From positions 1,550,001 to 1,614,000 of the forward strand of contig NC_012489.1 in the NCBI RefSeq assembly GCF_000010305.1: a stretch of DNA of 64,000 nt, read 5' to 3'. Of this stretch, positions 3,736 to 47,652 are shown piece after piece. Made by a program: the position numbers and the translations under genes. This DNA comes from Gemmatimonas aurantiaca T-27 (lineage in GTDB: Bacteria > Gemmatimonadota > Gemmatimonadetes > Gemmatimonadales > Gemmatimonadaceae). The notes under the pieces were generated by a model that saw nothing but the letters and a program-made list of their open reading frames with translations, did no database searches and was not told where the DNA came from. Numbering within the stretch: the stretch's first letter is position 1; each line of letters opens with the position of its first letter.

Positions 3736-3809
3736 GGCTGGGTAGCTCAGCCGGTTAGAGCGCACGACTCATAATCGTGAGGTCGGGAGTTCGAGTCTCC
3801 CCCCAGCTA
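3736..3809 (+). tRNA. tRNA with CAU anticodon (elongator Met, or Ile2), island insertion site
   Basis: This is a 74-nt class I cloverleaf: acceptor GGCTGGG/CCCAGCT (G1:U72 wobble), D arm GCTC/GAGC, anticodon arm CACGA CTCATAA TCGTG, T arm GGGAG TTCGAGT CTCCC, discriminator A, no encoded CCA. The anticodon is CAU, so it is elongator tRNA-Met or, after lysidine modification, tRNA-Ile(CAU). Sequence alone does not separate these. The 3' half from the anticodon loop onward is repeated at 47610-47652, which marks this gene as the integration site of the 44-kb island. The gene is left intact, with its 3' half probably supplied by the island. Confidence 0.95.
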
Positions 3810-3810
3810 T
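3768..3810 (+). repeat. attL core (tRNA 3' half)
   Basis: This is 43 nt from the anticodon loop to one base past the tRNA discriminator. It matches 47610-47652 at 41 of 43 positions. The two differences are at T-stem positions 50 and 64 and are compensatory (G-C here, A-T at the right end). Confidence 0.92.
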
Positions 3811-39894: not shown

Positions 39895-40318
39895 CGATAC
39901 CCCTGGCTGGGCCCCGGCCACCACGGCCGGAGGTGAGACCAGTGTAGGCCGGCTGCGACGTGGCTCCCCGGGGGAGGCTGTCCGCCGCCTGATCGGGGCG
40001 GACGGCACCGAGCGAGGGCGCCATCCGGTTCATCCGGATGAACCGGAAGAACCGGATGTGGCGGAAAATCCGGATCGTCCGGGTATCCGGGATTCTTTGC
40101 AGCATCCGGATTCCGCGACTACAGGCGGAAGCATCCGGAAAATCCGGATTGTTCAGGCGGGATGGTCTATCGCGCGGCAGGGCAGGGGAGTCTACTGGGA
40201 TGAAGCGCCGCCAACCCTCGCGCCCTGTCACGCCCGCGAGGTACCTTGCCCCCGGTTCGTGAACCCCGGGGCAGATCTGCCCTCCATCGGTACTGCTGCT
40301 AGAGGTGGTGTGTCCGGA
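39895..40318. repeat. Non-coding region with clustered ATCCGG repeats
   Basis: There are seven copies of ATCCGG, at 40023, 40032, 40068, 40085, 40104, 40133 and 40142, several extended to the palindrome ATCCGGAT. A 13-mer GGAAAATCCGGAT occurs twice (40063 and 40137). The spacing is irregular, so this is not a CRISPR. It lies 170-300 nt upstream of the MmeI-like gene and may be a regulatory or replication/recombination site. The rest of the region (40150-40318) shows no gene. Confidence 0.6.
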
Positions 40319-43300
40319 ATGTCGTCGTCGAATGCCGCTGTAACCCCCGCCGTCGCGCTTCGCGCCCTGCGCGAACGCTGGGCCGGGGTTCCCGCCGCTG
40401 AGCGGGCGAACGCCCAGAGCTACCTGCGCGACCTCTGTGAGGCGCTGGGGGTGCCGGCCCCGCTCCCCGCCGGCTCCGGGTACGAGTTCGAGCTCCCCGT
40501 CAAGCTGATCACTCGCGACGGCACCGAGACGACCGGGTTCGTCGACTGCTACAAGGTCGGCCACTTCATCCTCGAGGCGAAGGACGTGCAGGGCGGCGCC
40601 TCCGACGTGGCGCTCCGCCGTGCGTATGGCCAGGCGCGCCAGTATGCCGCCCACGACCCATCGGGCACGGCGCCCCCGTATCTCCTCGTGCTCGACGTGG
40701 CCAAGACCCTGCTCGTGTACCATCGCTGGGGCGGTGTGTATCAGGGGTTCGCCGCGGGCCATCGCATCGACCTACCAACGCTGGATCAGCGGCCGTCTGA
40801 CATCGAGCTGCTGCGCGACATCTGGACGCAGCCCACCAAACGCGACCCTCGGCAACACGCGCAGGCCGTCACCCAGGAGATCGCGGCGAAGTTGGCGACG
40901 CTGGCCGCCACCCTCGAGGATCGGGGCTTTGGGCCTGAACGCGTCGCGCGCTTTCTCATGCGCGTGGTGTTCTCGTGCTTCGCCGAGGACGTCGATCTCC
41001 TCCCGCGCGAAGCATTCCGACAGACTGTGCAGAATGCCGGCGTGCAGGGTGATGCGGCCCTCTTTCAGCGTGCGCTCGGCAGTCTCTGGCAGACGATGGA
41101 TTCGGGCGGCCTGTTCGGCTTCGAGAACATCCTGCAGTTCAACGGGCATTTTTTCAAAGACGCTGAGGTGCTGCCGCTCGAACGAGAGGAGATCGCCCTC
41201 GTACTCGAGGCGGCTCGTGCCGACTGGCGGGACGTTGAACCGACGATTTTTGGCACGCTGCTCACGCGTGCGCTCGACCCGGTCGAACGCCATCGCCTCG
41301 GCGCGGAGTACACACCCCGCGCGTTCATCGAGCGGTTGGTGCGCCCCACCGTGGAGGAGCCGGTGCGCGAGCGCTGGACCGCCGTGCAGGCCGAGGTGCT
41401 GCAACTGCGTGAATCGGGGAAGGCGAAGGACCGCGCGGCAGCCGAACAGCGGCTGCGCGAGTTCCTCGGCTGGTTGCAGGGACTTCGGGTACTCGACCCG
41501 GCCTGTGGCAGCGGCAACTTCCTCTACGTCACGATGCACGTGTTGAAGGACCTCGAGTATGAGGTGGTGCGTGAGCTCGAGGCGCTTACCGGACACGCCG
41601 AGCTCCGCATGCAGGAAATAGGGCCGAAGAATTTCCTCGGCATCGAGGTGAAGCCGTGGGCGCGTGAGATCGCCGAGCTCACGCTGTGGATCGGGTTCCA
41701 CCAATATTGGAAGCGTCACCATCACGTGCAGCCGCCCGAGCCGGTGCTCATGGACACCGGTACCCTCGAGTTGCGAGACGCCGTGCTGGCATGGGATGCC
41801 GTGCGCCACGTGCCGGAGAAGGATCGCTTCGACCCCACACCTCGCATCACGCATACGGTCACGGGCGAGCTGGTGCCCGACCCCGCGGCGACGTTGCCGT
41901 ACATGGAGCACGTGGGGGCACGGCAGGCGCCGTGGCCGGAGGCGGACTTCATCGTGGGGAATCCGCCATTCTTAGGACAGTTCCGACAGCGCGAATCCCT
42001 GGGTGACGGCTACGTCGAGGCGCTCCGGTCGGCTTACCCGGGCGTGCCTGATGCGGCCGATCTGGTGATGTACTGGATCTCCAAGGCCACACGCGCCGTC
42101 GAATCGGGACGCACGTTGCGAGCGGGGCTCATCACGACCCAGTCGATCACGCAGAAGCAGAACCGAAAGGTGCTTGAGGATGCAGCCGTGCGAGGGCTGC
42201 GTCCGGTTTGGGCCATTGCGGATCACTACTGGAACGATGGCAGCGACGACGCCCGCGTGCGTGTCGCAATGACAGTGTTCGCAAGAGAGCCTGCTGCAGC
42301 CACGCTGGTCACGGTCGATGGCGAAGCGAAAGTCGTGAACACAGTGCGTGTGCCGAGGTTGAACACCGACCTCACCGTGCATGCTGACGTACCATCAGCC
42401 GCTGCCGTTGCGCTTCAGGCGAACGCGTGGCTTTGCTCCAATGGCTATAAGCCTCACGGCACAGGATTCCTCCTCTCAGATGAAGAGGCACGGAGGCTGC
42501 TAAGCCTCGATCCCCGGAACGCGGAAGTGCTCCGTCCGTATCGGAACGGAATGGACCTCGCCACGCAGCCGCGCCGTGTTTGGATCATCGATTTCGGATT
42601 CGCAGACGAAAGCGAGGCACGGACCTACCCGCTGCTGTTCGACATAGTCCGTGATCGCGTGAAGCCCGAGCGCGATGCGAACGCGCGGGCGGTGTATCGG
42701 ACTTATTGGTGGCGATTCGGAGAGGCGCGCCGAGATTGGCGCAGCTTCGTTGCGGGGCTTCCTCGTTACATCGCTACGGTGAAGACGGCGAAACACCGGT
42801 TCTTCACATTTCTTGAATCAACCGTAGCACCGGATGACAAGCTCACGTGCATTGCTTCGTCGGAAGGCTTCGTGCTCGGTGTGTTATCCTCATTGATCCA
42901 CTCGACATGGGCGCTTGCGGCCGGGAGTAGGCTGGGGATCGACGGCACGCCGTCGTATGACAAGGGGACATGCTTTGACGCGTTCCCGTTCCCAGACTGT
43001 TCCGCCGATGTGCGCAATCGTATCGCGACAATTGCTGAGCGAATCGACGCACATCGAAAGTCCGCTATTGAGCGCAGTGCGAAGGTCGGTATGACCGTCA
43101 TGTACAATGTCATCGACAAGCTCCGAGTCGGGGCTACGTTAACCTCGAAGGAGCGTGAGGTCCACGAAGTCGCTGCGTGCGGCGTTCTCCGCGATTTGCA
43201 CGATGAGCTGGACGCCACGGTGGCGGAGGCGTACGGCTGGTCTTGGCCCGAGCCGCCGGCGTTGATCCTCGAGCGCCTCGTCGCCTTGCATGACCGCCGT

Positions 43301-43657
43301 GTGGAGGAGGAGGCGGGCGGCACGATCCGGTGGTTGCGTCCAGAGTATCAGCGTCCTCGGTTCGGCGGGGCCACGGACGGTGCCAATGTGGCCCCCACAC
43401 TGGACCTGCCCGCGACGCCCACCACCCTCACCGGAGCTGGGACAGTCATCGCCTCTGCGCCGTGGCCAAGTGACGCCATCGGTCAAATCACGGTGTTGCG
43501 CTCGATGGCGGCGATGACGCCAGTCTCCATCGAGGAGGCCGTGCAACGCCTCGTGGGCGCCAAGCGCGACATCGTGCACCGCCATCTCGAGACCCTGGCC
43601 ATGCTCGGCGAAGTTCGCGACGTCGGCGACGGGCGCTACGCCGTAACCGGGTCATAG
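40319..43657 (+). CDS. MmeI-like type IIL restriction-modification enzyme
   Basis: This is a single-chain endonuclease and adenine methyltransferase of 1112 aa. The nuclease motif is D76-x9-E86-A-K88 (in FVDCYKVGHFILEAKD), the same spacing as D70/E80/K82 known in MmeI. The helical connector follows, then methylase motif I DPACGSGNF (about 393-401) and motif IV GNPPFLG (NPPF about 548-551). A target-recognition region (GYKPHGTGFLL to AFPFPD) and a C-terminal winged-helix-like extension (TPVSIEEAVQRLVGAKRDIV) complete it. One protein both modifies and cuts, so no partner gene is needed. The start ATG 40319 is chosen because upstream codons lie in the ATCCGG repeat region. Its recognition sequence cannot be read off. 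Confidence 0.88.
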   Translation: MSSSNAAVTPAVALRALRERWAGVPAAERANAQSYLRDLCEALGVPAPLPAGSGYEFELPVKLITRDGTETTGFVDCYKVGHFILEAKDVQGGASDVALRRAYGQARQYAAHDPSGTAPPYLLVLDVAKTLLVYHRWGGVYQGFAAGHRIDLPTLDQRPSDIELLRDIWTQPTKRDPRQHAQAVTQEIAAKLATLAATLEDRGFGPERVARFLMRVVFSCFAEDVDLLPREAFRQTVQNAGVQGDAALFQRALGSLWQTMDSGGLFGFENILQFNGHFFKDAEVLPLEREEIALVLEAARADWRDVEPTIFGTLLTRALDPVERHRLGAEYTPRAFIERLVRPTVEEPVRERWTAVQAEVLQLRESGKAKDRAAAEQRLREFLGWLQGLRVLDPACGSGNFLYVTMHVLKDLEYEVVRELEALTGHAELRMQEIGPKNFLGIEVKPWAREIAELTLWIGFHQYWKRHHHVQPPEPVLMDTGTLELRDAVLAWDAVRHVPEKDRFDPTPRITHTVTGELVPDPAATLPYMEHVGARQAPWPEADFIVGNPPFLGQFRQRESLGDGYVEALRSAYPGVPDAADLVMYWISKATRAVESGRTLRAGLITTQSITQKQNRKVLEDAAVRGLRPVWAIADHYWNDGSDDARVRVAMTVFAREPAAATLVTVDGEAKVVNTVRVPRLNTDLTVHADVPSAAAVALQANAWLCSNGYKPHGTGFLLSDEEARRLLSLDPRNAEVLRPYRNGMDLATQPRRVWIIDFGFADESEARTYPLLFDIVRDRVKPERDANARAVYRTYWWRFGEARRDWRSFVAGLPRYIATVKTAKHRFFTFLESTVAPDDKLTCIASSEGFVLGVLSSLIHSTWALAAGSRLGIDGTPSYDKGTCFDAFPFPDCSADVRNRIATIAERIDAHRKSAIERSAKVGMTVMYNVIDKLRVGATLTSKEREVHEVAACGVLRDLHDELDATVAEAYGWSWPEPPALILERLVALHDRRVEEEAGGTIRWLRPEYQRPRFGGATDGANVAPTLDLPATPTTLTGAGTVIASAPWPSDAIGQITVLRSMAAMTPVSIEEAVQRLVGAKRDIVHRHLETLAMLGEVRDVGDGRYAVTGS

Positions 43658-43807: not shown

Positions 43808-44581
43808 ATGGCGGACGAGCGGCAGAAAAGGACCGTAGTTACGGCTCCGTACATGTCTTGGGCTACCTTCGTCGGGTTCATTGCCGAATTGAACAAGAAG
43901 GGGGCGCCCCCGCCGCGTGTAGACGCGTCCCTGCTTACGACCAAGGCCGGTTCGGTCCAGCGGCAAATCCGAGGTGCCCTCGAGTTCTTCGGCCTCACGA
44001 GCGGTGAGTCGTTCGAGGTAACTGAAAAGATGCGCTCGCTCATTGCCGCTTACGGCACGCCTAGCTGGAGCCAGCAGCTCGGATCGCTGCTCATGTCGTA
44101 TGAGCCGCTTCTGGTCGGTTTGGACCTCAGCAGCGCGACGCACAAACAACTCGAAGAGGCGCTCGGCCGGAGCGGATTGACTGGGGCGTCGCCTCTTGAT
44201 AAGGCGTCTCGGTTCTTCCTCGCGCTCGCGAAGGAGGCTGGACAACCGCTCTCGCCCCATTTCAAGTCGTTACGACCGGGGGCCGCGGGCCGGAAGGTGG
44301 GTGGCGGCGGGAAGCCGAAAAACGGTCGCGCGAAAACGACCTCGGCCGAATCGATGCCGACCGGCGGGCCAACGACGCCGCCGCCGGGCACCCAGCAAAT
44401 TCGTCCGCTCCCTGATCTTGACTTCGTAGTGCACCTGCCGGAGTCGATCACGGAGGACGAGACCCTCTTCGCTATCGATCACCTCATCGGTTACCTGCGC
44501 CTGCGCCGGAAGTGGTTCTCCAACGTCAAGCTGCACCGTGACCCACAAAGCCAACGACCGCCGAATCCTGGGGAGGAATAG
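43808..44581 (+). CDS. DUF5343-family protein
   Basis: The 257-aa protein's N-terminal half matches DUF5343 in layout: PYMSWATFVGFIAELNKKGA, RVDASLLTTKAGSVQRQIRG and ALEFFGLTSGESFEVTEKMR, a helical domain resembling a winged helix. A basic Gly/Lys-rich linker and a separate C-terminal segment (LPDLDFVVHLPESITEDETL) follow. DUF5343 proteins are of unknown function and commonly occur in islands and defence regions. It follows the MmeI-like enzyme by 150 nt with its own repeat-bearing promoter region, and ends in a strong hairpin containing its stop codon. A role in regulating or aiding the restriction enzyme is possible but not shown. Confidence 0.65.
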   Translation: MADERQKRTVVTAPYMSWATFVGFIAELNKKGAPPPRVDASLLTTKAGSVQRQIRGALEFFGLTSGESFEVTEKMRSLIAAYGTPSWSQQLGSLLMSYEPLLVGLDLSSATHKQLEEALGRSGLTGASPLDKASRFFLALAKEAGQPLSPHFKSLRPGAAGRKVGGGGKPKNGRAKTTSAESMPTGGPTTPPPGTQQIRPLPDLDFVVHLPESITEDETLFAIDHLIGYLRLRRKWFSNVKLHRDPQSQRPPNPGEE

Positions 44582-44595
44582 TCGGCGGTCGTTGG
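44551..44595 (+). terminator. Hairpin terminator of the DUF5343 gene
   Basis: Perfect 14-bp arms CCAACGACCGCCGA (44551-44564) and TCGGCGGTCGTTGG (44582-44595) enclose the TAG stop (44579-44581). A T-rich tract is weak (AGATCTTCACCTTT). Confidence 0.65.
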
Positions 44596-44675: not shown

Positions 44676-44749
44676 ACCCCTGTAGCTCATTTGGATAGAC
44701 CACCCGACTGCTAATCGGGAGGTAACCGGATCGTGCCCGGTCAGGGGTA
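44676..44749 (+). tRNA. Island-borne tRNA-like gene, anticodon GCU, short variable loop
   Basis: This is a complete 74-nt cloverleaf: acceptor ACCCCTG/CAGGGGT (7 of 7 pairs), D arm GCTC/GACC with one C-C mismatch (11/24), anticodon arm CCCGA CTGCTAA TCGGG, variable loop AGGTA, T arm ACCGG ATCGTGC CCGGT, discriminator A, no CCA. The anticodon GCU reads serine AGC/AGU, but bacterial tRNA-Ser has a long variable arm and this one does not. Positions 54/58 are A/T in place of T/A and 15/48 are T/A, so tertiary pairs are reversed but still complementary. It could be a tRNA-Asn-like relative with a changed anticodon. The charged amino acid cannot be predicted. Confidence 0.75.
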
Positions 44750-44751
44750 CG

Positions 44752-44805
44752 TTGCCATACCCCGGCGAGTCCGTCGAAGTTAGGACGACTCGCCGGGTTT
44801 GGCAA
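44752..44805 (+). terminator. Terminator after island tRNA
   Basis: Stem CCCGGCGAGTC (44761-44771) with GACTCGCCGGG (44787-44797), extended by TTGCC/GGCAA outside, followed by TAACATC. It begins 2 nt after the tRNA 3' end. Confidence 0.7.
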
Positions 44806-45015
44806 TAACATCACGCTGCGAAGGCTCCAGTTCGGCACGTCGCCCGTCGTCGTGCCCTGGCCAGGATTGGGCTGTAGGTGATCAGGTGTCTGTAGATCCT
44901 GCCCACCGGGAGAGAGCCGTGCCGTAACGGCGATGCCGATGACGGCATGCGGAGCGCTGGCCCGGCGTCCTTGGAGCATGATCGTTGTCCGAGGCTGAAA
45001 AATTACGTGCGCTAG

Positions 45016-45033
45016 ACCTTTCCCATGAAAGGT
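45016..45033. promoter_or_regulatory. Dyad over the start codon of the excisionase candidate
   Basis: ACCTTTC-CCAT-GAAAGGT has perfect 7-bp arms and contains the ATG at 45025. It could be an autoregulatory binding site or an RNA hairpin hiding the start. Confidence 0.4.
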
Positions 45034-45666
45034 TCAACGCATGTCAGCGCCGTCGGCCCCGCCGCCGCCCCCGAGGTCGCCGCCAGCTCGGCCGCCCGGC
45101 CCACGCACCTCACCGTCGCCGAGCTCGCAGTGCGGTGGGGGATCTCCGCGTACACCATCCGCGAATGGGCGCGCACCGGACGGATCACCGACTGCCGCCT
45201 TGCCCACGGCGAGTGGGTGTTTCTGGAGAGCGCCCGCTTTCGGCTGACGCGGGCCGCCGCCGAGGGGCACCGGGGCGCCGAGACCTTGTTGGACTTCGCC
45301 GCCTACCCAGTCACGGTCGCGGAGCTCGCGACCCTCGTTCGCTGCAACCACGACACGATCCGGCGCCGGGCGCGGGCGGGCCAGTACACGCCGGCCGTAC
45401 ACACGCCCCTCGGCTGGCGATTCGGTGCGGGGGTGCTCGACCCTTCGTTCCCGGTCTCCGGGGCCGCCAGCTGCCCGTCAGGCGCCTCGGGCACGGCATC
45501 GGGGGACCGTGATGCCGATCCTCTCGCCGGGCTGCGGAACCTGAACTTCGATGTGCGCCGGCTTGGTGTGCCGCCTGTCGCGGTAGGGACGCATGCCTCG
45601 TCTGCAGCTGGCTCGGCCTCCCCCAGTCGGAAGCGGCGAGGGCCGCAGGCGATCTATCGCCGCTGA
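45025..45666 (+). CDS. Tandem-HTH DNA-binding protein, excisionase candidate
   Basis: The 213-aa protein has two MerR/excisionase-type HTH units: LTVAELAVRWGISAYTIREW followed by ARTGRI, and VTVAELATLVRCNHDTIRRR followed by ARAGQYTP. The C-terminal 90 residues are disordered and basic at the end (RKRRGPQAIYRR). Two DNA-binding units next to the integrase, convergent with it and 180 nt away, fit a recombination directionality factor that bends DNA at the island ends. The alternative is a plain regulator. ATG 45025 sits in a perfect dyad and has no strong ribosome-binding site, so translation may be regulated or the start may differ. Confidence 0.65.
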   Translation: MKGSTHVSAVGPAAAPEVAASSAARPTHLTVAELAVRWGISAYTIREWARTGRITDCRLAHGEWVFLESARFRLTRAAAEGHRGAETLLDFAAYPVTVAELATLVRCNHDTIRRRARAGQYTPAVHTPLGWRFGAGVLDPSFPVSGAASCPSGASGTASGDRDADPLAGLRNLNFDVRRLGVPPVAVGTHASSAAGSASPSRKRRGPQAIYRR

Positions 45667-45846: not shown

Positions 45847-47394
45847 CTACACCATGCGCGCCACGGCGGCGGCGAATCGCCGGATGCGGGCCAGGGGGAG
45901 GCGACCCAGATCGCCACGCATGATCGACGTGACCTCGGCGGGCGTCGCCATGAGCCGCGTCATGAGCGCCGTCTCAGACAGTCCGTGCGACCGCACCGCC
46001 TCGCGGATGCTCCGCGCATAGCGGCGCCGCTCCTCCTGCTCCTCCGAGGTCAGGGGCGTACGCTGCACCGCGGCCTCGGTATCTCCCGCGGCGCGGCGCG
46101 CCTTCTCGATGGCGCGCCCCGCCCGGATGCGCTCGCCGTGATATGCCGACCGGCGCTGCCGTGCGGTCTGCGCATCGGGCAGGTCCTCGAACAGATCGAG
46201 CTCCACTTGCTCGACGCGCTCGCGGGTCACGTGGCCGTAGACGCGACGGATCAGCGTCTCGTCGGAGTGACCGATCTCTCCCACGATCAACTGCGCATCG
46301 ACGGGCAACGTGGTCCCGGTGACCGAGAGATGGAGCATCTGCAACCGCGCCGACACATAACTGTGCCGGAGGATATGATGGTCCAGCGACTTGCGAATCC
46401 CCGCCCGCTTGGCCGCCGCGGTCAGCGTGCCCGTGATGTCCTGAATGGGCGCATTCTTCTGCGCCTGCGTCTTGAGGATGACACTGGGGAAGAGCAGGGC
46501 GTGGCCGGGGCGGTCGCCGATGTACGGCTTGAGGACCGCCGCCAGCTTCGTCCACAACGGGATCGAGCGCTCGGCGGCTTCGCTCTTCCCGTCGCGGAAC
46601 GTGTTCGGCGCGACGCGGATCTGCTGCGTGTGGAAGTTGACGTCGCGCACGAGCAAGGCCATCGCTTCCTCGCGCCGCATGCCCGTGTACATCAGCGTCA
46701 TGGCGAGTTCGATGGCATACGGCACCTGCGGCGACGGCAGCACGTGGTCCAGCAGCGCCTTGAGTTCGGCGCGGGTGAGATAGGCGTCGTCCTCAATGGC
46801 CGTCCGCTTGCTGATGCGGGGCAGGTAGCGGCTGTTGGGCAGCGGATTGACGGTGAGCACGCGTTCACTGACGGCAAACGTCAACATCGCGGAGAACTCA
46901 AGGGCGTACGACCGGACCGTGGCCGCGGAGAGCGGCTGGCCGTCGACCTTGCGGCGGGCGCTGAGCTCTCCGAGCATCGCGTCCACGTCCTGCGGTTCGA
47001 GCCGCGAGAGGTAGCGCACCCGCTGGAGGGTGGGCGTTTCGAGGCAATTGAGGATGCCCCGCTTCCGGCGGTCCAAGTCACGCTCGCGATGGACCGGTCG
47101 CCCATCGGTCTGGCGCTCGGCCGCGAGGGCGGCCAAGAACGAGACGGCGTAGTCGGCGAGCGTGGGCCCGCGCTGGTCGCTGACCACGGCCGGGAGTCCG
47201 GCCTGATGGCGGTCCAGCGCCTTTTCGTACGTTGCCCATCGCGCCTTGAACAGCGCGTGGGCGACCACGGGATCGGTGGTCGCAAACTCTTCGCCGGGCG
47301 GCACCAGCGGCTCCCGCTTGCCGCCCACGGCGGCGAACCGGCCAAAGTTGGCCCAGTACCTGTTCTTGTTCAAAAACGGCTTCGCTTCGCGCAC
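45847..47394 (-). CDS. int: Tyrosine integrase with C-terminal HTH-like extension
   Basis: This is a site-specific recombinase that should integrate and excise the island at the tRNA site. The 515-aa protein has an N-terminal arm-binding region (VREAKPFLNKNRYWANFGRF), a core-binding domain, and the catalytic domain with box I LMYTGMRREEAMALL (Arg), a Lys-bearing RDGKSEAAERSIPL, box II HHILRHSYVSARL (HxxRH), GEIGHSD and the nucleophile in RVYGHVTRER. About 100 further residues end in an XRE-like helical unit (HGLSETALMTRLMATPAEVT), unusual for integrases. The GTG at 47394 is preceded by AGGAGG; an ATG at 47532 lacks this. It reads away from attR, 216 nt from it. Confidence 0.93.
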   Translation of the reverse strand: MREAKPFLNKNRYWANFGRFAAVGGKREPLVPPGEEFATTDPVVAHALFKARWATYEKALDRHQAGLPAVVSDQRGPTLADYAVSFLAALAAERQTDGRPVHRERDLDRRKRGILNCLETPTLQRVRYLSRLEPQDVDAMLGELSARRKVDGQPLSAATVRSYALEFSAMLTFAVSERVLTVNPLPNSRYLPRISKRTAIEDDAYLTRAELKALLDHVLPSPQVPYAIELAMTLMYTGMRREEAMALLVRDVNFHTQQIRVAPNTFRDGKSEAAERSIPLWTKLAAVLKPYIGDRPGHALLFPSVILKTQAQKNAPIQDITGTLTAAAKRAGIRKSLDHHILRHSYVSARLQMLHLSVTGTTLPVDAQLIVGEIGHSDETLIRRVYGHVTRERVEQVELDLFEDLPDAQTARQRRSAYHGERIRAGRAIEKARRAAGDTEAAVQRTPLTSEEQEERRRYARSIREAVRSHGLSETALMTRLMATPAEVTSIMRGDLGRLPLARIRRFAAAVARMV

Positions 47395-47524
47395 AGTCCC
47401 CTCCTGGGGTGTTGGTGTGTGCGCGCAGGCTAGGTCGCGTAATTTTGGCGGCCGCGTCGGCCGCCCCGGGGGCGGGCCGAGGCGGCTCAACGGGGCGAAA
47501 GGGGCGGCGGCGCTGTGGGTGGGT

Positions 47525-47559
47525 TTGCGCATACGCGGGCGTGAACCGCGCGCATACGG
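47525..47559. promoter_or_regulatory. Candidate integrase arm-type sites, right end
   Basis: Direct copies TTGCGCATACG (47525-47535) and GCGCATACGG (47550-47559), the same element as the three copies inside the left end (3925-3972). They lie between the integrase gene and attR. Confidence 0.55.
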
Positions 47560-47580: not shown

Positions 47581-47612
47581 GAGACAGTTAGTGTATCGTG
47601 ATACGCTGTCTC
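47581..47612. repeat. Inverted repeat abutting attR
   Basis: The outer arms GAGACAG (47581-47587) and CTGTCTC (47606-47612) are perfect, with an inner GTATC/GATAC dyad. The right arm overlaps the first 3 nt of the attR core. It may be part of the core-type site or a binding site for the excisionase. Confidence 0.5.
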
Positions 47613-47652
47613 ATAATCGTGAGGTCGAGAGTTCGAGTCTCTCCCCAGCTAT
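47610..47652 (+). repeat. attR core (tRNA 3' half remnant)
   Basis: 43 nt, matching 3768-3810 with two T-stem differences (A here for G, T here for C), which keep the stem paired (GAGAG/CTCTC). The tRNA 5' half is missing, so this is not a functional gene. Confidence 0.92.

Follow-up and report, generated by a model that had tools for sequence, protein, structure and literature searches.

The window, i.e. the whole stretch of 64,000 nucleotides of Gemmatimonas aurantiaca T-27 that was analyzed, contains a 43.8-kb island, which was marked out by its tRNA-Met repeats, its tyrosine integrase and its excisionase-like HTH gene. The attL-like repeat (3768-3810, + strand) is the 3' part of tRNA-Met (3736-3809) and was determined with ARAGORN and a repeat search. 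The attR-like repeat (47610-47652, +), detected by repeat search, is 95% identical to it. The integrase is encoded at 45847-47532 on the - strand (Pfam) and the excisionase-like or MerR-type HTH protein at 45025-45666 (+, family matches). Near the integrase end of the island, a class I tRNA gene with the anticodon GCU and an arginine-type body (44676-44749, +; ARAGORN, Rfam and sequence reading) follows two protein genes. These encode an MmeI-type type IIG restriction-methyltransferase (40058-43657, +; the true start is probably downstream of 40058) and a 257-AA DUF5343-related protein with a predicted N-terminal winged helix (43808-44581, +). The latter gene is called the partner gene, as homologues of it have a tRNA or tRNA-like sequence at the same place. 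One strong hairpin covers the end of the partner gene and lies between gene and tRNA (44551-44595, +; z -7.0). Another is located directly 3' of the tRNA (44751-44806, +; z -7.6) and is probably a transcript end or an insulator.

No synthetase gene is present among the tRNA's neighbors named by Pfam (MmeI-type enzyme, excisionase-like HTH protein and integrase), no nuclease was identified near the tRNA, and no transposase adjoins the pair. The integrase homologues in the loci examined are not accompanied by a tRNA; hence, the window tRNA does not follow the integrase. The host genome is a single contig of 4,636,964 bases with 47 tRNA matches (Rfam). It has a normal, long-armed tRNA-Ser(gct) of 91 nt and a full set of other tRNAs, so that the island tRNA is redundant for decoding. 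A codon-usage check revealed no avoidance of AGY codons in the partner or island genes and, thus, no sign of self-protection or recoding.

ARAGORN called a tRNA-Ser(gct) at 44676-44750 (+), and the Rfam tRNA covariance model, a check that had been proposed in the initial annotation, scored 44676-44749 with 49.4 bits (gathering score 29, E-value 1.5e-7). The initial annotation had further stated that all acceptor, anticodon and T-stem pairs form, which was confirmed by sequence reading: the acceptor stem is paired at 7/7 positions (ACCCCTG/CAGGGGT), and the anticodon and T stems at 5/5 each. The acceptor/T arms are therefore 7/5 and not 8/4 or 9/3 as in allo-tRNAs. Its claim of a serine anticodon in a class I body likewise agrees with ARAGORN, Rfam and the sequence. 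The anticodon loop CTGCTAA contains GCT, which reads AGC/AGU and not arginine codons, and the variable loop has five bases (AGGTA), i.e. the long variable arm of bacterial tRNA-Ser (class II) is absent. Two tertiary pairs are reversed (U15-A48 and A54-U58), again as described initially. What that description lacked is a C11-C24 mismatch, due to which the D stem is paired at 3/4 positions only (GCTC/GACC). When the unmodified RNA was folded without tertiary contacts, an alternative fold (-29.6 kcal/mol) was 6.8 kcal/mol lower than the cloverleaf (-22.8 kcal/mol). Because of this fold and the D-stem mismatch, the tRNA could be a weakened gene.

The body of the tRNA was compared with those of known isotypes. 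By sequence reading, it has the tRNA-Arg identity set A20, C35, U36 and A73; G36 also belongs to this set (U/G36). A20 was present in 116 of 117 class I arginine tRNAs and in 41 of 48 class I GCU tRNAs, and is the minority base in most other isotypes with alanine as the main exception (38/68). With the anticodon masked, the closest body was tRNA-Arg (score 101, next 86) within a wider neighborhood that is mixed. The isotype was correctly assigned by this method in 163 of 200 leave-one-out trials, and 27 of 51 GCU/ACU tRNAs were voted arginine. The best named DNA matches are tRNA-Arg of Acinetobacter. In bacteria, ArgRS identity is described as A20, C35, base 36 and A/G73, and serine identity rests on the variable arm, not on the anticodon (PMC9976931). 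Given the arginine set and the missing long arm, ArgRS and not SerRS is expected to charge the tRNA, which would then carry arginine to AGC/AGU codons. Body and anticodon disagree in this tRNA, an arginine-type body being combined with a serine anticodon, and naming by anticodon (‘tRNA-Ser’) could mislabel the amino acid. Of the three proposals made initially (a different amino acid at AGY codons, a decoy for anticodon nucleases or a non-translational role), the first is best supported, by the arginine determinants and by relatives with the same logic of body and anticodon; for charging and decoding it would still be a prediction. A long variable arm is combined with an anticodon for Asn, Lys, Ile(UAU), Thr, Cys or Gln in many phage tRNAs (viral loci L118-L355, e.g. 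L181, L188, L247, L264). For this reason, the length of the arm was not by itself taken to prove a mismatch.

The most serious alternative, although an unlikely one, is that the window tRNA derives from a phage-type tRNA-Arg(UCU), whose wobble U changed to G, and is now decaying and persists as a passenger without function. The nearest bodies are indeed tRNA-Arg, viral tRNA-Arg(UCU) of a similar kind are present, the weak cloverleaf and the D-stem mismatch would fit decay, and no full-length relative was found in 40 related genomes. However, no pair has been lost from the acceptor, anticodon or T stem, and the reversed tertiary pairs are complementary. To assess the latter, viral contigs were scanned for class I tRNAs with U15/A48, which gave at least 120 matches; the 80 loci kept from these contain 75 tRNA calls of many isotypes. 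In a scan of viral contigs for A54/U58 (AUCGU), the T stem was perfect in 59 of 81 cases among the matches listed. The other tRNAs of the viral loci have T/A (2041), A/T (79), A/A (22) or T/T (0) at positions 54/58; this tally omits tRNAs selected by pattern and is drawn from related sequences and enriched loci. Positions 54 and 58 covary strongly in these tRNAs. The U54-A58 pair has been called a hallmark T-loop feature (PMC7912444), but phage tRNAs, chiefly Asn(GUU), Ile(GAU) and Met(CAU), repeatedly have A54-U58 instead. Since intact phage tRNAs show both swaps repeatedly and positions 54 and 58 covary, the reversed pairs of the window tRNA are not a sign of decay. According to the initial annotation, homologues without the compensatory pairs would mark the gene as decaying. 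This is not simply applicable: each swap is found in intact phage tRNAs and one or the other in single class I GCU tRNAs (U15-A48 in L064, A54-U58 in L088/L357), while most class I GCU tRNAs have ordinary pairs. A further point against decay is that GCU or ACU tRNAs with arginine bodies recur beside the same kinds of partner gene in unrelated lineages, as described below.

The 257-AA partner protein has no match in Pfam, PADLOC or NCBIfam. In the alignment of its family, four of eight members match DUF5343 (PF17278; best E-value 3.9e-6) and the window protein itself does not; the matches of these members support the name DUF5343 given initially. The restriction enzyme that had also been named initially as a neighbor of the tRNA is the MmeI-type IIG enzyme. 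The structural model has a mean pLDDT of 74 with good values for residues ~10-150, and its N-terminal part is predicted to be winged-helix-like. Foldseek gave no match for the model at E ≤ 0.001. The best VIA-align hit (Z 4.9) was BrxA of BREX systems, and many winged-helix regulators matched weakly as well; because these matches are weak, no more than ‘winged-helix-like’ is claimed.

When 395 Gemmatimonadota genomes were searched with the protein alone, homologues of the partner were found in 12 other genomes. The loci of this DUF5343 subfamily were thus collected without any tRNA criterion, and nine of them were informative. In six of the nine (L444-L449), a tRNA or tRNA-like sequence is present on the same strand near the gene end (at or within ~90 nt). 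A decayed tRNA remnant follows the homologue in L451, and no tRNA was seen after the gene in L450 and in L443, the closest protein relative (52% identity). The partner homologue of a planctomycete (L493) has no tRNA either. One of the six, L448, combines a Leu-type class II body with UGG, an anticodon of proline. The other five (L444-L447 and L449) are short tRNA-likes with a reduced D arm, in which the acceptor GGGGCGC faces (G/A)CGCUCC-A and which retain G3-U70 and A73, i.e. the alanine (AlaRS) signal. With the Rfam mascRNA model, three of the short Ala-type tRNA-likes reached 36-40 bits and thus fell short of the gathering score (42.5); this type may not work in translation at all. Generic DUF5343 genes (L467, L469, L470, L472, L473) have a second protein gene 3' instead of a tRNA. 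As to the homologue search that had been suggested initially, tRNAs or tRNA-likes accompany the partner homologues in six of nine Gemmatimonadota loci, and the window tRNA has no full-length relative in the 40 related genomes. In these loci, the neighboring DUF5343-type gene is a recurring partner and not a bystander, which the initial annotation had overlooked. The subfamily had no matches in plasmids or phages, and the viral scan gave nothing new; in the literature searched, there was no paper on DUF5343 and none tying IS1595 to a GCU tRNA.

Some further features of these loci were recorded. In L445, L446, L447 and L449, the Ala-type tRNA-like is followed by a strong ribosome-binding site with very short ORFs (e.g. 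MPPPP-stop) and then by a terminator-like hairpin; the ORFs are possibly a leader peptide. In L443 and L450, which are without tRNA, a related small protein is encoded next (..DEHEWIFVRSFRTRSGKVIHASSYGKQAF.. and ..DEWVWICTPYVTRNGRRIFASQYGLKAF.., respectively). One locus with a tRNA 13 nt before a generic DUF5343 gene (L080) was set aside, since it is possibly an island border.

Less probable than decay is a purely structural function, according to which the tRNA fold is an RNase P/Z processing signal, or an RNA partner, setting the 3' end or the control of the partner transcript, with an irrelevant anticodon. The recurring place right after the gene, the strong hairpins on both sides, the mascRNA-like scores of the short versions and the winged-helix partner are in line with this. 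The full-size versions, however, retain complete anticodon arms with ordinary loops, and anticodons from outside the body's own set would be needless for a mere processing signal.

A pattern scan for class I GCU tRNAs matched 48 stretches of the genome collection and 15 of viral contigs. The resulting set is mixed: L075 is a mutated Asn copy, L086, L094, L100 and L110 are archaeal Ser tRNAs, L102 is a false match, and in some copies the acceptor is broken. Class I GCU tRNA-likes with unpaired acceptor stems were noted in L056/L081, L101, L093, L096 and L072; the copies of Tissierella and Alkaliphilus are alike, and these sequences could be a separate tRNA-like family.

Beside class I GCU/ACU tRNAs of proteobacteria and viral contigs, genes of a second protein family end 43-139 nt upstream of the tRNA (L062, L068, L076, L078, L091, L112, L115, L366, L416; L366 and L416 were found through their transposase, not by the GCU pattern scan). 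This small protein, for which Pfam has no family, is by our reading coiled-coil-like at the N-terminus and winged-helix-like at the C-terminus. When 289 genomes of one class were searched with the profile of this family and without a tRNA criterion, three new loci were obtained (L486-L488). In L486, the gene is followed by an Arg-body GCU tRNA and preceded by a Leu-body ACC tRNA, a layout shared by L062 with a Leu-body UUA (ochre) tRNA, and in L487 two Leu-body UGC tRNAs follow the gene. Together with a narrower search (L490-L492), six non-seed matches were obtained, four of which (L488, L490, L491, L492) have no tRNA, L490 being cut at the contig end. Mismatched tRNAs in two of six non-seed loci greatly exceed the ~0.3% expected per 300 nt (for a genome with 47 tRNAs in 4.6 Mb). 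The second family gave nothing in plasmids, and the viral scan nothing new. Overall, the tRNAs attached to both partner families repeatedly pair the body of one amino acid (Arg, Leu or Ala) with the anticodon of another.

Several side observations concern these loci. Two predicted ochre suppressors of the Leu-type class II with anticodon UUA lie beside the winged-helix-like gene (L062, 2145-2232, -) and beside an IS1-like transposase (L385, 2776-2859, +). A conserved small basic protein (..GGLKGGKARA..LTPEQRSEIAKKAAAARW..) is encoded upstream, in or near winged-helix cassettes, in L061, L112 and L492. In Dehalococcoidia (L104, 533-1236), a Leu-body GGA (Ser) tRNA, an Arg-body GCU tRNA and an odd CCU tRNA are close together. 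Despite its mismatched tRNAs, L104 was not accepted as a cassette, since a small gene on the opposite strand separates the first two.

IS1/IS1595-type transposases were found in 13 of 63 class I GCU loci (470 kb), in 3 of 9 DUF5343-subfamily loci (125 kb) and in none of 158 other viral tRNA loci (1,469 kb). Among 80 viral IS1-like loci, only four have a tRNA just upstream of the transposase, at a distance of 110-140 nt and with the anticodons GCU, ACU, UUA (Leu body) and AGU; the link is therefore an enrichment and not a rule. Simple scans detected no terminal inverted repeats around tRNA and transposase. As no insertion-sequence ends were found in this way, a position of the tRNA inside an insertion sequence is not claimed. 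A winged-helix-type gene next to a tRNA or tRNA-like with discordant body and anticodon thus recurs in other bacteria and in viral contigs, often together with an IS1/IS1595-type transposase.

We prefer the explanation, with a probability of about one half, that the window tRNA is a missense tRNA on a mobile island, forming a two-gene cassette with the upstream DUF5343-related winged-helix protein. ArgRS would charge the tRNA through A20/C35/U36/A73, SerRS would reject it for its missing long variable arm, and the ribosome would put arginine at the serine codons AGC/AGU. Judging from the layout, and more as a guess, the partner might control expression of the tRNA, and the pair might be a conditional translation poison, for defence or addiction, in the service of the mobile element. 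The combinations follow a rule: arginine bodies with GCU or ACU retain C35 and U36, and the synthetases that recognize Leu bodies or a G3-U70 acceptor are independent of the anticodon. Parts of the latter statement are supported by PMC9976931 and PMC11415595. Charging by the body followed by misreading is, thus, the simplest reading of these tRNAs. That the RNA is instead a decoy or sponge, absorbing an anticodon nuclease or toxin and thereby shielding the island or a phage, is the least probable alternative: the phage-type body, the adjoining restriction enzyme and the short tRNA-likes with reduced D arms after related partner genes would suit it, but it leaves the synthetase-preserving pattern unexplained (Arg bodies with NCU, Leu bodies, G3-U70) and no nuclease was identified nearby. 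Counted against the missense cassette were the D-stem mismatch and the alternative fold, the homologues free of a tRNA (L443, L450, L493 and four of six in the second family), the lack of full-length relatives in the 40 genomes, the unavoided AGY codons, the mixed GCU set and the lack of an adjacent transposase.

A more general idea is offered tentatively, with the odds against it: bacteria, islands and phages may share an unrecognized class of mobile cassettes, each with a winged-helix or DUF5343-type protein in control of one or several mis-assigned tRNAs, whose Arg, Leu or Ala bodies carry foreign or stop anticodons. Translation would then be poisoned or recoded on demand in defence, addiction or conflict between mobile elements. 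Few natural tRNAs with a built-in break of the code are known, none of them with an established purpose. If a cassette of this kind, with its predicted DNA-binding partner, recurs in bacteria and viral contigs, it would make this puzzle testable genetically.

The closest known cases are tRNA-ProX and the allo-tRNAs. Like the window tRNA, tRNA-ProX of Streptomyces, which is served by ProRSx (PMC11415595), is a natural bacterial tRNA whose body and anticodon belong to different amino acids, and it has an unusual 15-48 pair. Its body is of the proline type, it has A33 and A34, and a synthetase is dedicated to it (PMC11415595), whereas the window tRNA has an arginine body, U33 and G34, no synthetase gene seen nearby, a DUF5343/winged-helix partner and a location on a mobile island. 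In the allo-tRNAs of Mukai et al. 2017, as described in PMC7609411, the identity of the body (Ser or Ala) overrides diverse anticodons, as proposed here; for these tRNAs, a link to transposons or toxin-antitoxin systems has already been suspected. The allo-tRNAs described there have 8/4 or 9/3 acceptor/T arms, in contrast to the 7/5 arms, class I variable loop and arginine identity of the window tRNA. Phage-encoded tRNA-Arg(UCU) (e.g. L121) resembles the window tRNA in its D-loop type with A20, in U15-A48 and in similar stems, but the window tRNA has G34 instead of U34 and, thus, reads serine codons, has the A54-U58 T loop and resides on an integrative island. Toxin-antitoxin and abortive-infection cassettes are likewise small and mobile and combine a predicted DNA-binding protein with a product that may be harmful; here, this putative product would be a charged tRNA. 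New in the present case is the arrangement of partner gene and tRNA; if confirmed in more genomes and experimentally, the cassette would go beyond a variant of the tRNA-ProX or allo-tRNA kind.
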